Source: Lachnospiraceae bacterium (GTDB lineage: Bacteria; Bacillota; Clostridia; Lachnospirales; Lachnospiraceae). Taken from it: a DNA stretch of 64,000 bases. Shown here one piece after another: positions 16,700 to 60,120 of this stretch. The stretch is taken from NCBI GenBank assembly GCA_014239155.1, contig JAAZZQ010000056.1, positions 62,001 to 126,000 of the forward strand. The letters run 5' to 3'. Within the stretch, counting starts at the first letter, position 1. Each line of letters opens with the position of its first letter. The notes under the pieces were generated by a model. That model saw only the letters and a program-made list of their open reading frames with translations. It did no database searches and was not told where the DNA came from. A program made the position numbers and the translations under genes.

Positions 16700-18358
16700 T
16701 TAGTCCGGCTTATAAAACTGGACAATCTCAGTCTCTGTCTGTGGTCTTTTCCTCATATAAGCATCATAATCCTTAAAATAGTGCCCCATATCCCATGCCT
16801 GATAGCCTCTTTTGTGCAAATCAGAGGCAAGCACCTTGGCTGTTGGTCCAAGTACAATGCACACAAGCTTTTTGGGATCGGTTCTTAAAGCCGCTCGCAA
16901 TAATATATCATATTTATCAAATGCATTCATACTTGGCGCTGTAATAAAATCAACGGAGGCGCATATGGAGTATGCTTTGTATTCCAGCCTGTCTAGCACA
17001 CCCTCTCCACATATCAGCGTAATCTCCCGTTCTTTTAATAAATTTTGCATATGTTTGTAATATTGTTGAAAATTGTACTTTTCATACGTCTGATATACCT
17101 GTGTAATACAAGTGTCTATATAAGTCATATCTCTATTGCAGTTCCTACAGAAAAATCTGCGCTGTGCGGTCAAAGATTTCGCAAACGAGGCTACAAATGG
17201 ATTTAAATTCTTTATTGGATGCGTGTAATAGTATGGAATCCCAATTTTCAGCCCCTCTGTCTCTGTTCTTAGTATCTTTCTAAGCCTGCGTGCTAATTTG
17301 GGATTAAATTCCTGAAATGGTATGGACTTTCCTTGCATAATTGCAATCTCGCCATCTCCGTACCGCAGAAAACTTACTTTTTCTTTTTCAAGCAAACGCA
17401 TTGTTTCTCCTGTAGTCAAAATGGAAATCTTATCTACATATGCACCTTTCTCATATCGCAGGCGTTCCAAATGGCGATCAACTCTTATAGGAACTTTTGT
17501 TAGTTTTCCAGCAATTTCCTTTGCTTTCTTTTTATAGAGTCGTGCCACAGAGTATCCTTTTGCTTTTTTTCGCAAGATAAAATATTCCGCCCCCACATGT
17601 ATCACATGATTTTTTATTGCTGCAATCTTCTCAATATCTAGTGTGTTATCCTCGTCATTATACAATCTATCCAAGGAATAAATATCTGTGAGCATACTGT
17701 CATCAAATCCATTCTGATGTGTATCCTGCACCCTGTTTACGGTAATTACAATCGCACAACTTGAGCCTGCATGACATGCCATATGTGGTCGCATAATGCG
17801 CTTCTCTCTGTTCTCTGGAGTCAGCATTGCCTCATAATAATTGGGATTCTTTATAACATTTTCTTCCTCCATTGTCAGTTTAAGAACGTCTTCCTTGCGA
17901 TATAATGTGCAGTCCAGTTCCCACGGATAATTATAATGTTGGTATTCGCAATTCCATTTCCACTCAAACACGTTATTATCTGTTGAAAGATTCTGCGGTC
18001 TTGGAATGATATTATCTCCAAGCCGAACACTATAACCAAACACTTTGGGATTGTCCGCAAGATAAGACGCCGCCCCTATAAGACAAAACTGCCTTGTAAA
18101 CACAACATCATCACAGCCAAACATAATATAGTCATCTGCATGTGTTATAAGTTGTTTTAAGTCATTCTCAAACGTTTCTTCTTTTACCCAAGTCACTTGT
18201 GGAAAATTTTCCTTTATTTTCTGGTAGCGAACGCCTTTTGTCTCACAATAAAGCACTGTAATATGGCTCTCCTTTATGTCAGAAAATCGAAGTAAACTTT
18301 CCAAATATGCATGTAATTGCAACGGACGATCTTTTGAAAATACTATTACTGAAATCAT
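16700..18358 (-). CDS. bifunctional glycosyltransferase: GT2-like domain fused to GT-D (DUF1792) domain
   Basis: A 552-residue two-domain protein. Residues 1-250 form a GT-A-like domain: MISVIVFSKDRPLQLHAYL at the start, DDYIMFGCDDVVF near 92-104. From about residue 315 a GT-D domain follows, marked by FLRYGDGEIAIMQG, then IGIPYYY, ICGEGVL and IVLGPTAKVLASDL. The RYGDGE block is the hallmark of the DUF1792/GT-D fold first described in streptococcal adhesin glycosylation. The two domains probably add two successive sugars. The end is 14 bases before the ABC flippase ATG. The start has AAAGGG about eleven bases upstream. The domain assignment is good; the substrates are unknown. Confidence 0.8.
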   Translation of the reverse strand: MISVIVFSKDRPLQLHAYLESLLRFSDIKESHITVLYCETKGVRYQKIKENFPQVTWVKEETFENDLKQLITHADDYIMFGCDDVVFTRQFCLIGAASYLADNPKVFGYSVRLGDNIIPRPQNLSTDNNVFEWKWNCEYQHYNYPWELDCTLYRKEDVLKLTMEEENVIKNPNYYEAMLTPENREKRIMRPHMACHAGSSCAIVITVNRVQDTHQNGFDDSMLTDIYSLDRLYNDEDNTLDIEKIAAIKNHVIHVGAEYFILRKKAKGYSVARLYKKKAKEIAGKLTKVPIRVDRHLERLRYEKGAYVDKISILTTGETMRLLEKEKVSFLRYGDGEIAIMQGKSIPFQEFNPKLARRLRKILRTETEGLKIGIPYYYTHPIKNLNPFVASFAKSLTAQRRFFCRNCNRDMTYIDTCITQVYQTYEKYNFQQYYKHMQNLLKEREITLICGEGVLDRLEYKAYSICASVDFITAPSMNAFDKYDILLRAALRTDPKKLVCIVLGPTAKVLASDLHKRGYQAWDMGHYFKDYDAYMRKRPQTETEIVQFYKPD

Positions 18359-37930: not shown

Positions 37931-37957
37931 TCTCTAATCATACCTTTCACTTGTAAT

Positions 37958-38077
37958 ATACGCACGGTAAGTAGAGCCGTGCGTATTGCGCCAGCCGCAG
38001 CCGCAAAGCGGCATACTTCCTCATGCGGCTGTGTGCATCACTTTATACTAGTGGTCAGTTTTTTGACCACTAGTATA
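37958..38077 (+). repeat. three-hairpin palindromic element, copy a
   Basis: Three hairpins occur in order. HP1 is ATACGCACGG / CCGTGCGTAT (37958-37967 and 37977-37986). HP2 is compound: basal GCGC (37988-37991) pairs with GTGC (38033-38036), T38032 is bulged, CAGCCGCA pairs with TGCGGCTG (37992-37999 and 38024-38031), inner GCCGC-AAA-GCGGC covers 38000-38012, and an 11-base one-sided bulge ATACTTCCTCA covers 38013-38023. HP3 is a perfect 14-pair palindrome with loop GTTTTT (38044-38077) and reaches into the 3' end of the SGNH gene. The layout is shared with elements near 46.6 kb and 60.0 kb. Confidence 0.8.
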
Positions 38078-39136
38078 GATTTTTTCATAATCATAATTTA
38101 GATAATACTGTTTCTCTGCCTCCAAACGCTTTAGATAATTATCTTGTGTGACAAGCCCCGCGTCGGAAGCAATCCACTGCAAAATCTGACTGTTTATCCT
38201 TGCAGAATAATGCTCCTTATCCCTGTAATTATCAAGATTTGTAATCACTTCATACTGATCAAAAAAATTATATAGTTTCACATTGGGGCATTGCAACAAC
38301 AATTCTGTCACTAATTGTTCTGCTTCAAATTGTCTTATAATAGATCCCTCCTGTATCAAGGAATCCCAATAACAGATGCTGTATGGTGTATAAAAAACAT
38401 AAAATGTCGTATCTGGATATTTGTTTACCAATGAAATCACATTTTCTGTTATATTTTCTATGGTCATTTTTCGTTCTTCTGGTCCCAAAAATGTTGGCAT
38501 ATCCTCCTCCACATGATTTCTGTCATATGTCTGCAAAATATACTGTAATCCTGTTTCTTTCTCCCATGAAGAATATGCATCCATCGTTGTCCGTGGCTGT
38601 CCTGTCACCGTCTTTAAAATATTGGGTAAGACGCCATGATAAAAGATAGACTTATTAAATACATACTGTACATCATTCCACGGATTATCATCATAAAGAT
38701 ACTCCGGGTATCCCTCATACTGTGTCCAGCCTTTCTCTCGAATAAGGCCACTATAATCTAATGTCCACAGAACGGTTTTCAAATTTTTGTTGCGCTGTAA
38801 TGCTCGCTCTAAGTTTTGTGAAAGCTCTTGAAATCCTGCCCCAGAGAATGTTTCTTTTACAGATTGGGTTCCAAACAAAGCATCCATTTCACTTGGCTTA
38901 AAGTTCTGCGCCATTGATGTTCCCGTAATAATAGCATTGTAATCAAAATGTCTTGAGATCCCATCATTTGTATACCGCTCGTCATACAGTCGATAGGAGA
39001 CAAATGAAAACGGCTTGTGAAAATGAAAATATGGATCAAATATCCAAACAATCAAAAAAACAAGAAAAATTGACAGTAATAGTGACACAAAACATCGCAC
39101 AAACCATTTTTTGGCATCTTTTTGTCTCTGGTCCAT
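38048..39136 (-). CDS. SGNH-type O-acyltransferase partner of MBOAT
   Basis: A 362-residue protein with one N-terminal helix (about 13-32) and an extracellular domain. AIITGTSMAQNFKPSEMD near residue 65 resembles the GDS serine block, and DNYRDKEHYSARINSQIL near 315 supplies the catalytic Asp and His of an SGNH enzyme. It follows an MBOAT gene by 19 bases, the arrangement used to O-acylate extracellular sugars. Its last nine codons and the stop codon lie inside a 14-base-pair palindrome (38044-38077), so the present C-terminus (YTSGQKTDH) seems to come from an inserted element. AAGGGAAGG precedes the ATG. It is not closely related to the DHHW protein at 11508. Confidence 0.75.
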   Translation of the reverse strand: MDQRQKDAKKWFVRCFVSLLLSIFLVFLIVWIFDPYFHFHKPFSFVSYRLYDERYTNDGISRHFDYNAIITGTSMAQNFKPSEMDALFGTQSVKETFSGAGFQELSQNLERALQRNKNLKTVLWTLDYSGLIREKGWTQYEGYPEYLYDDNPWNDVQYVFNKSIFYHGVLPNILKTVTGQPRTTMDAYSSWEKETGLQYILQTYDRNHVEEDMPTFLGPEERKMTIENITENVISLVNKYPDTTFYVFYTPYSICYWDSLIQEGSIIRQFEAEQLVTELLLQCPNVKLYNFFDQYEVITNLDNYRDKEHYSARINSQILQWIASDAGLVTQDNYLKRLEAEKQYYLNYDYEKIYTSGQKTDH

Positions 39137-46386: not shown

Positions 46387-46520
46387 TAACAGTTCAGACA
46401 AGCTGACCTGTTACTGCAAAAATCCATTGAAAATCGCCTTTGGCGATGGATTTTTGCTCTCAAGTTTTACATGTTCATATGGTCTTCACAAGTCTTGTGA
46501 AGACCTGTCTAAATTGTTAC
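46387..46520 (-). repeat. composite inverted-repeat element, copy II
   Basis: Read on the minus strand, it starts with head GTAACAATTTAG (46520-46509), then palindrome GGTCTTCACAAG-T-CTTGTGAAGACC (46505-46481), a linker containing ATGTAAAACTTG, a bulged hairpin GCAAAAATCC / GGATTTTTGC enclosing ATCGCC-AAA-GGCGAT and a seven-base bulge (46457-46416), and ends in hairpin GTAACAGGTCAG-CTTGT-CTGAACTGTTA (46414-46387). The head and the terminal CTGAACTGTTA are inverted relatives, giving the unit terminal inverted repeats. The parts occur in the same order as in copy I (46739-46908). Confidence 0.75.
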
Positions 46521-46544
46521 AAAAATTTCCATGTAGCGTTCAAA

Positions 46545-46657
46545 AATGCCATTGGCATTCTTACTGCGGTGTGCGGGTCAGCTCCGCTGACAAATTACAG
46601 ATTCGCACGCCTGCAATCTTGCCGGAGGTTTATCTCAGTAGGAGATTGTTCTCCTAC
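46545..46657 (+). repeat. three-hairpin palindromic element, copy c
   Basis: HP1 is AATGCCA-T-TGGCATT (46545-46559). HP2 has basal TGC/GCA (46565-46567 and 46613-46615), bulged T46612, an eight-pair stem GGTGTGCG / CGCACGCC with one wobble (46568-46575 and 46604-46611), inner GTCAGC-TCC-GCTGAC (46577-46591) and a 12-base one-sided bulge AAATTACAGATT (46592-46603). HP3 is GTAGGAGA-TTGT-TCTCCTAC (46638-46657). Helix lengths and the bulged T match copies a and b while the helix sequences differ. It lies in the presumed leader of the glycan operon. Confidence 0.75.
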
Positions 46658-46703: not shown

Positions 46704-46736
46704 AAAACAGTGTATTCTCTGTAGAATACACTGTTT
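46701..46736 (-). terminator. rho-independent terminator of the adhesin transcript
   Basis: AAACAGTGTATTCT (46705-46718) and AGAATACACTGTTT (46723-46736) form a perfect 14-pair stem with loop CTGT. On the minus strand the stem is followed by a run of T (46707-46701), while on the plus strand only TT follows. It therefore ends minus-strand transcription coming from the adhesin gene at 46934-53473, about 200 bases after its stop codon, and separates it from the glycan operon. Confidence 0.85.
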
Positions 46737-46738
46737 TG

Positions 46739-46908
46739 GTAACAGTTCGGCCTTCGGCTTTCTGTTACAGGTATCAAGCCATGCAAAACCACTTGATGGC
46801 GTCAAAGCCATGCCTTGTAGCTTGATGCATCTCTGCCACTACACAATTTTACATGGCTTATAATTCTATAATTTGCAGTAAATGCAAAGTTTTAGACTAA
46901 ACTGTAAC
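46739..46908 (-). repeat. composite inverted-repeat element, copy I
   Basis: Read on the minus strand: head GTTACAGTTTAG (46908-46897), hairpin TTTGCA-N5-TGCAAA (46888-46872), linker containing ATGTAAAATTG, a long bulged hairpin closed by ATCAAGC / GCTTGAT (46826-46773), and end hairpin GTAACAG / CTGTTAC with inner GCC-TTC-GGC-type stem (46768-46739). The order of parts equals copy II at 46387-46520, but the hairpin sequences have been replaced. It lies between the adhesin stop codon and its terminator. Confidence 0.7.
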
Positions 46909-46933
46909 CTGTCTTGGACTTTATTTTAATTCC

Positions 46934-59975: not shown

Positions 59976-59988
59976 CTTCAAATATAAT

Positions 59989-60120
59989 CGAGTAGGGAAG
60001 ATTACTTCCCCTACTCGCGCGCCGGGTGTCCGTCAGCTTGCTGACATATTTCATTTAGACACCCGTGCGCATATAAATCCCCGTATAGCATTTTCCGCTG
60101 TACGGGGCTTTGTATGCGCA
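59989..60120 (+). repeat. three-hairpin palindromic element, copy b, between convergent genes
   Basis: HP1 is CGAGTAGGGAAG / CTTCCCCTACTCG (59989-60017, one bulged base). HP2 has basal GCGC/GCGC (60019-60022 and 60067-60070), bulged T60066, CGGGTGTC / GACACCCG (60023-60030 and 60058-60065), inner GTCAGC-TT-GCTGAC (60032-60045) and bulge ATATTTCATTTA (60046-60057). HP3 is CCCCGTATAGC / GCTGTACGGGG (60079-60089 and 60097-60107), enclosed by TGCGCATA / TATGCGCA (60066-60073 and 60113-60120), which competes with the basal stem of HP2. It may also end transcription of both flanking genes, though T-runs are weak. Confidence 0.8.

Follow-up and report, generated by a model that had tools for sequence, protein, structure and literature searches.

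A bulged, covarying compound hairpin in dispersed palindromic repeats of a Lachnospiraceae genome and its relatives

The REP/BIME repeats associated with TnpA-REP (RAYT) are small imperfect palindromes that are found in hundreds of copies between genes and near gene ends, occur in tandem and inverted pairs, have bulged stems and are presumed to be mobilised as single-stranded DNA, and in all these respects they resemble the family described here, three copies of which lie in the window (the whole stretch of 64,000 nucleotides of a Lachnospiraceae contig that was analysed). GTAG REPs have been reported from Proteobacteria, Cyanobacteria, Chloroflexi and the PVC group, and the parts of the same source drawn on here give five phyla for CGTC REPs, Firmicutes not among them (PMC3733652). 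The present family differs from REP/BIME in having no unpaired GTAG/CGTC foot (sub-family I starts AATCGAG.., and its GTAG lies inside the stem of hairpin 1), in its two-hairpin unit, its 12-nt one-sided bulge and its attachment to terminators; furthermore, no Y1 gene flanked by copies was found in 32 Y1 loci of up to 3.4 kb.

Elements of the IS200/IS605 class have end hairpins with an extrahelical base, produce no target duplication and insert beside a short sequence, and the present family is like their ends, and like PATE-like derivatives of them, in the extrahelical base; one nested insertion free of duplication and the ATAAAA beside 38 of 56 sub-family I ends suggest that it may share the other two features. 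The end hairpin of IS608 has an unpaired T17 (PMC8266576). The asymmetric bulge of the present family is far larger, however, and no transposase gene or matching Y1 element was found for it.

Pneumococcal RUP, BOX and SPRITE are likewise folded, non-autonomous, present in many copies and enriched between convergent genes. The inverted ends of RUP resemble those of IS630-Spn1 (PMC3049150), and IS630-type ends are also carried by the present elements where they occur in one bacterial family, f11. Sub-family I, unlike these repeats, has no inverted ends and is polar to terminators, a separation made by description and not by sequence or fold. Group IIC introns target terminators, and the likeness to them lies in insertion beside a DNA stem-loop. 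Their DNA target is a stem-loop (PMC10190682); the present elements are set apart by their size of about 82–150 bp, by having no Rfam match and by the lack of a group II RT match in their own genome. Taken as a whole, the family works like REP/BIME repeats and MITEs, yet it has neither the REP foot nor, in the Y1 loci examined, a linked transposase, and no description of it was found in our literature searches.

A covarying compound hairpin in three sub-families

The original prediction held that three loci in the window, here copies A, B and C (Table 1), share a plan of simple hairpin, compound hairpin and simple hairpin. With DNA energy parameters the three copies fold as drawn (z = -10.2, -4.6 and -9.1), and at each of them 0 of 200 shuffles matched the native fold energy. 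An architecture scan (basal helix of 3 bp, T bulge, 8-bp helix, 0–2 unpaired bases, inner hairpin, bulge of 9–14 nt) recovered exactly copies A, B and C on the plus strand of the window; it returned one unrelated AT-rich match on the minus strand, 1, 0, 0 and 0 matches on four shuffled plus strands, and a few chance matches in other loci too.

Table 1. Positions in the window of the three copies, their hairpins and the terminator beside copy C
Feature	Position	Strand	Basis
Copy A, sub-family III, whole TA-flanked element, ends TATAC...CTAGTATA	37957..38077	+	sequence
A hairpin 1, 11 bp, 7-nt loop	37958..37986	+	DNA fold
A compound hairpin: 8-bp helix CAGCCGCA/TGCGGCTG, inner GCCGC-AAA-GCGGC, 11-nt bulge, bulged T	37987..38037	+	fold, architecture scan
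A hairpin 3, 14 bp, genuine part of element	38044..38077	+	fold
Copy B, sub-family II, shortened third hairpin	46539..46657	+	sequence comparison
B hairpin 1, AATGCC-ATT-GGCATT	46545..46559	+	fold
B compound hairpin: 8-bp helix GGTGTGCG/CGCACGCC, inner GTCAGC-TCC-GCTGAC, 12-nt bulge, bulged T	46565..46615	+	fold, architecture scan
B mini-hairpin remnant GCC-GGA-GGT (GCC-GGA-GGC in other sub-family II copies)	46621..46629	+	
B hairpin 3 remnant GTAGGAGA-TTGT-TCTCCTAC, shortened from a longer third hairpin	46638..46657	+	
Copy C, sub-family I, complete two-hairpin unit AATCGAG...GCGC, 85 bp	59986..60070	+	boundaries from tandem array and one nested insertion elsewhere
C hairpin 1, CGAGTAGGGAAG..CTTCCCCTACTCG	59989..60017	+	fold
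C compound hairpin: 8-bp helix CGGGTGTC/GACACCCG, inner GTCAGC-TT-GCTGAC, 12-nt bulge, bulged T	60019..60070	+	fold, architecture scan
Resident terminator between convergent genes, outside mobile unit	60079..60107	.	differs between copies; relatives without element keep terminator

A covariance model (R1) was built from 26 copies, including A, B and C, which as members of the building set score 39.3 bits (E 7.8e-9), 64.8 bits and 78.1 bits at their compound hairpins, respectively. Covariation was gauged by shuffles and by sliding the pairing partners. Among the 26 copies 92.5% of cells were paired, with two-sided changes at 11 of the 18 pairs; the covariation score was reached by 0 of 500 shuffles and the number of pair types by 4 of 500, and pairing fell to 21–45% when partners were slid by 1–3 columns. 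The values for 109 matches (105 distinct sequences, eight sampled genera) were 93.0% paired, 16 of 18 pairs with two-sided changes and 19–50% on sliding, in an alignment fitted to the model, so that these counts lean towards it. As had been claimed, the structure of the compound hairpin is real and covaries, and the signal is strong in both sets. Its one-sided bulge of about 12 nt is loosely conserved in sequence (ATATTTCATTTG, ATATTTCCTCTG, AAATTACGGATT), and the helices vary. The claim that unrelated helix sequences keep their pairing stands as to the pairing; because copies B and C have the same inner hairpin, GTCAGC..GCTGAC, part of the sequence is related after all.

The simple hairpins are specific to the sub-family, and the three window copies represent three sub-families (A, III; B, II; C, I). 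The three-hairpin plan holds for copy A, is degenerate at copy B and fails at copy C. In sub-family I the consensus is AATCGAGTAGGG..CCCTACTCG followed by GCGC-CGGGTGTC-C-GTCAGC..GCTGAC-ATATTTCATTTG-GACACCCG-T-GTGC, and a variant combines an unchanged hairpin 1 with a different compound sequence (GACCCGTG.. with GCCAC..GTGGC). The unit, AATCGAG...GTGC, is 82–87 bp long. At L240 2446-2937 (strain 526-35), six such units of two versions stand head to tail with 87-bp spacing, preceded by a 5'-truncated unit, and the last ends GTGC|ATAAAAA before a terminator. At L126 a sub-family I unit is nested in a sub-family II copy, within the conserved 3' end of the latter (GGCTGAG^ATAAA), without duplication, a single case. 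The array and the nested insertion together define sub-family I as hairpin 1 plus compound hairpin. Since the hairpin that follows varies among sub-family I copies and relatives without the element keep the terminator, the supposed third hairpin of copy C is host DNA.

A true third hairpin is found in sub-families II and III and in elements of other bacterial families, and it is often preceded by a mini-hairpin whose loop is GGA or GTA. The sub-family II consensus reads TTCAAGAATGCC..GGCATTCTTG, then CTGC-GGCGTGCG... Two other dispersed repeats share the neighbourhood of copy B: one at window 46387-46524 with inverted ends GTAACAGTTCAGAC, which in L131 (~16815-16990) splits a sub-family I hairpin 1 with an apparent 8-bp duplication GAAGTTTC, and one at window 46734-46909 in the same intergenic space, present in several genomes of the genus.

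In sub-family III, hairpin 3 is kept with paired changes in other copies (by eye), and copy A and its sub-family III relatives have the ends TATAC..GTATA. An element of the copy A type is held by the relatives' loci L301, L302 and L306, and by L304, where it is cut by the contig end. The orthologous place in G033 is without copy A, and comparison with that genome showed copy A to be an insertion, which took the place of the 3' end in a coding sequence. The minus-strand ORF at 38048-39136 has its last codons and stop (38048-38050) supplied by hairpin 3 of copy A, and the G033 orthologue has another end.

Copy number and distribution

The check set by the original prediction came out in its favour: searches for further copies found many, both in the window's own genome and in relatives of the genus. 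A pattern of the inner hairpin and bulge start occurs at 26 places in the own genome (0 for the reversed control), and R1 gave at least 139 matches at E<=0.01 from 150 scored of 1,495 first-look candidates. Almost the whole of the contig that contains the window and the whole of one other, together 459 kb, have 19 matches at E<=0.01, which implies about 190 copies for the 4.57-Mb genome, an extrapolation from two contigs already known to hold copies. Many copies lie outside genes (R1 matches, crude ORF caller).

R1 matches were obtained in 29 of the 35 other same-genus genomes sampled, in 30 of 60 relatives overall (own genome included; the counts per genome are lower bounds from 93 scored candidates) and in 0 of 24 sampled genomes from other families. 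In an order-wide sample 15 of 295 genomes match, and in a class-wide sample searched with a wider model 7 of 391, the own genome included in both and one of the seven belonging to another order. The exact pattern, among the matches listed (80 of 88 named stretches), falls mostly in records labelled Lachnospiraceae; the remaining listed stretches belong to Clostridiaceae, Eubacterium, Roseburia, Acetatifactor, Hungatella, Parablautia and one archaeal record, the last judged a chance match. A Methanoperedens match (L166) covers the inner part only, at 21 bits, and was judged to be due to chance.

Comparison with Rfam revealed no matching family: the whole window had 0 matches at the gathering score, the best match to copy A in a lax search was IS102 (21.9 bits, cut-off 46), and in a lax search of five loci with relatives both matches lay elsewhere in the loci, off the element. 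Carriage by phages or plasmids was considered and set aside for the sequences searched, with 0 stretches for two patterns in viral contigs, no match for the f11 element in phage records and none for the window C unit in plasmid records. Separately, 19.5 kb of the window is reported to be 100% identical to G016:C6:78082-97582, in a genome classed as another species.

Placement at terminators and orthologous sites

The surroundings of sub-family I were analysed in a cleaned set of 59 of 92 rows (dropped were 22 rows of sub-family II, 2 of III, 7 array members other than the last and 2 repeats), 28 of which come from the own genome and some of which are orthologous sites of close relatives and so partly non-independent. 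In 32/59 rows the first 25 nt downstream contain the start of a hairpin of 7 bp or more, compared with 4/59 at the upstream mirror position, and 27/59 rows are without a downstream hairpin by script. AAAA is present in the first 12 nt in 48/59 against 6/59 at the mirror position. The 3' flank is ATAAAA at 38 of 56 non-tandem ends, and the 5' flank shows only a weak preference beyond one A. With the element read left to right and a crude ORF caller, the gene directions were '<<' 34, '><' 12, '<>' 6 and '>>' 2 in the 54 rows with genes on both sides (5/59 have no gene on one side). The 3'-side gene therefore points at the unit in 46/54, which places the unit beyond the terminator of that gene and antisense to it.

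For sub-family II, there is no excess of downstream hairpins (1/20, and 1/20 at the mirror position), and the 3'-side gene points at the element in 13/22. In other genera the 10 of 14 elements with a terminal A-run were analysed (L315, an orthologue of L273, and L318, L325 and L326 were left out); by script a hairpin of 7 bp or more follows the A-run directly in 6 of the 10, and by eye an imperfect one does so in 3 of the remaining 4. Some TA-flanked f11 elements are at terminators and several are not (by eye). Strand use by the elements varies from contig to contig (chi-square 32.0, 9 d.f., p 2e-4, 141 of 145 matches); in the two contigs read, most genes lie on the minus strand and most copies on the plus strand, and replication and terminator direction are confounded there. 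At L026 2985-3139, a single terminator is flanked by two inverted units whose 3' ends both lie at its base.

Orthologous sites with and without the element were both found. It is absent for window A in G033, for window C in G003, for L117 and L118 in G010 and for L019 in L172; it is present in other comparisons, for example for copies B and C of the window in G016, which is near-identical, and at L021, L072, L076, L193 and L273. Where L010 is compared with L152 (G033), the matching terminator is kept and the element is absent. At the window C site, G003 and G022 have the terminator and no element (the two sides being on different contigs in G022), in G007 a short piece left of another unit lies on the far side of the terminator, and in G035 the element is truncated. 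Dispersal, repeated boundaries, tandem units, the one nested insertion and these empty sites support the transposable palindromic unit of the original prediction. Among 12 full-length sub-family I units of the own genome the best pair is only 93% identical (median 79%), which indicates that movement there is old; in f11 genomes several copies are identical in sequence, which indicates more recent activity.

Candidate enzymes and explanations for the spread

Y1 transposase matches are present in 20 of 36 same-genus genomes, and 13 of the 30 genus genomes with R1 matches have no Y1 match. Across the 32 Y1 loci, the sole R1 match below E 1 has 27 bits (L098), with two more at E 1.3 and 3, and six inspected loci (L088, L103, L095, L091, L093, L085) carry unrelated end hairpins of their own. 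R1 and Y1 counts are correlated (rho 0.40, p 0.014), and both track genome size (0.61 and 0.54). A Y1 transposase was accordingly rejected as the present-day driver, given the lack of linkage to copies and the unrelated ends in the six loci. The own genome has one apparently intact Y1 (IS200-type) gene, at L031 1450-1920 (minus), whose 3.4-kb locus contains no R1 match. No mobilising gene for sub-family I was found in the searches for Y1, IS630-type and group II RT genes.

The explanation we prefer, to which we would give about an even chance, is that the copies are a family of small non-autonomous palindromic mobile elements whose enzyme recognises a single-strand fold and joins it at terminators. 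It is somewhat unlikely, by our reckoning, that all sub-families are instead ordinary MITEs that IS630-type, TA-targeting DDE transposases move as double strands by cut and paste, the hairpins serving as inverted ends while the compound hairpin hitch-hikes. The f11 element of about 146 bp has perfect inverted ends TATAGTAAACGACA, and a degenerate IS630-type gene of G313 has the identical 14-base end TATAGTAAACGACA some 90 bp in front of it; the ends of copy A and its relatives point the same way. However, inverted ends are missing from sub-family I, whose ATCGAG start is preceded by CA in 18/34 and by TA in 10/34 (tandem joints included). A search with PF13358 identified no IS630-type gene among 6 candidates in the own genome and found one in only 1/6 genomes tested, and the retention of the compound fold across sub-families with different ends would stay unexplained. 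G313 has a second element (L255:512), whose compound hairpin is almost unchanged but whose ends differ. Retrotransposition, in which element RNA would be reverse transcribed from the terminator T-tract in a SINE-like way via a group IIC intron RT, we consider improbable. No group II RT match was obtained from 9 candidates in the own genome or in the copy-rich G033 and G022, although copy-rich G007 and G016 have such matches, and there is no correlation with copy number (rho 0.20, p 0.23). Placement beside T-tracts would suit this route, as would G-T as the commonest pair at one basal position (63/105) and the copies that appear 5'-truncated with an intact 3' end; yet some of the truncations have other causes, L131 being a nested insertion and L076 vs L245 an internal deletion, and LINE-like 5' truncation was abandoned as a main argument.

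The one-sided changes bear on a further explanation, a structured regulatory or 3'-end-protecting host RNA selected beside terminators. Outside pair 7/83 there are 57 G-T vs 87 A-C, without pair 4/85 as well (unformed in sub-family II) 55 vs 68, and in hairpin 1 of 36 copies 24 vs 32. As a test of strand polarity, these counts showed no bias. Because a selected RNA should favour G-U, the lack of a G-T excess over A-C argues against a maintained host RNA. Strong covariation and a position adjoining gene 3' ends would accord with such an RNA, but the units are mostly antisense to the terminator-side gene, are missing from several orthologous sites and number about 190. The structured-RNA option of the original prediction is disfavoured by this decay of copies, and we hold it to be very improbable.

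To return to terminator-joined mobile elements, mobilisation as folded single strands is plausible in view of the polarity, the one duplication-free case and the fold. The constant part would be the basal helix, the bulged T, an 8-bp helix of free sequence, the inner hairpin and the one-sided bulge of about 12 nt, and the enzyme would recognise this fold of one strand during movement. The folded strand may then be joined 3' of a TTTAT-like sequence, in the strand bearing the terminator hairpin, which would be the lagging-strand template if genes are mainly on the leading strand; the Y1 transposases of IS200/IS605 insert in a similar lagging-strand-template manner. The TA-flanked, inverted-end sub-families (copy A, f11 elements) seem to ride on an IS630-type transposase. 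A wider reading, which we put forward tentatively and regard as rather unlikely, is that one fold has been reused by several mobile lineages of Clostridia (terminator-aimed two-hairpin units, four-hairpin elements and IS630-ended MITEs) because an undescribed enzyme recognises the single-strand compound hairpin and docks on a terminator hairpin exposed in replication.

On the preferred explanation, gut Clostridia would possess a REP-like repeat superfamily of their own that is defined by its structure, not its sequence, and is placed with polarity at terminators. On the wider reading, if true, terminator-guided single-strand transposition would be a new mode. The copies offer a ready set of natural insertion sites for an enzyme search. 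The elements may also alter how transcripts end between neighbouring genes, and at copy A a coding sequence has already lost its own 3' end to the element.
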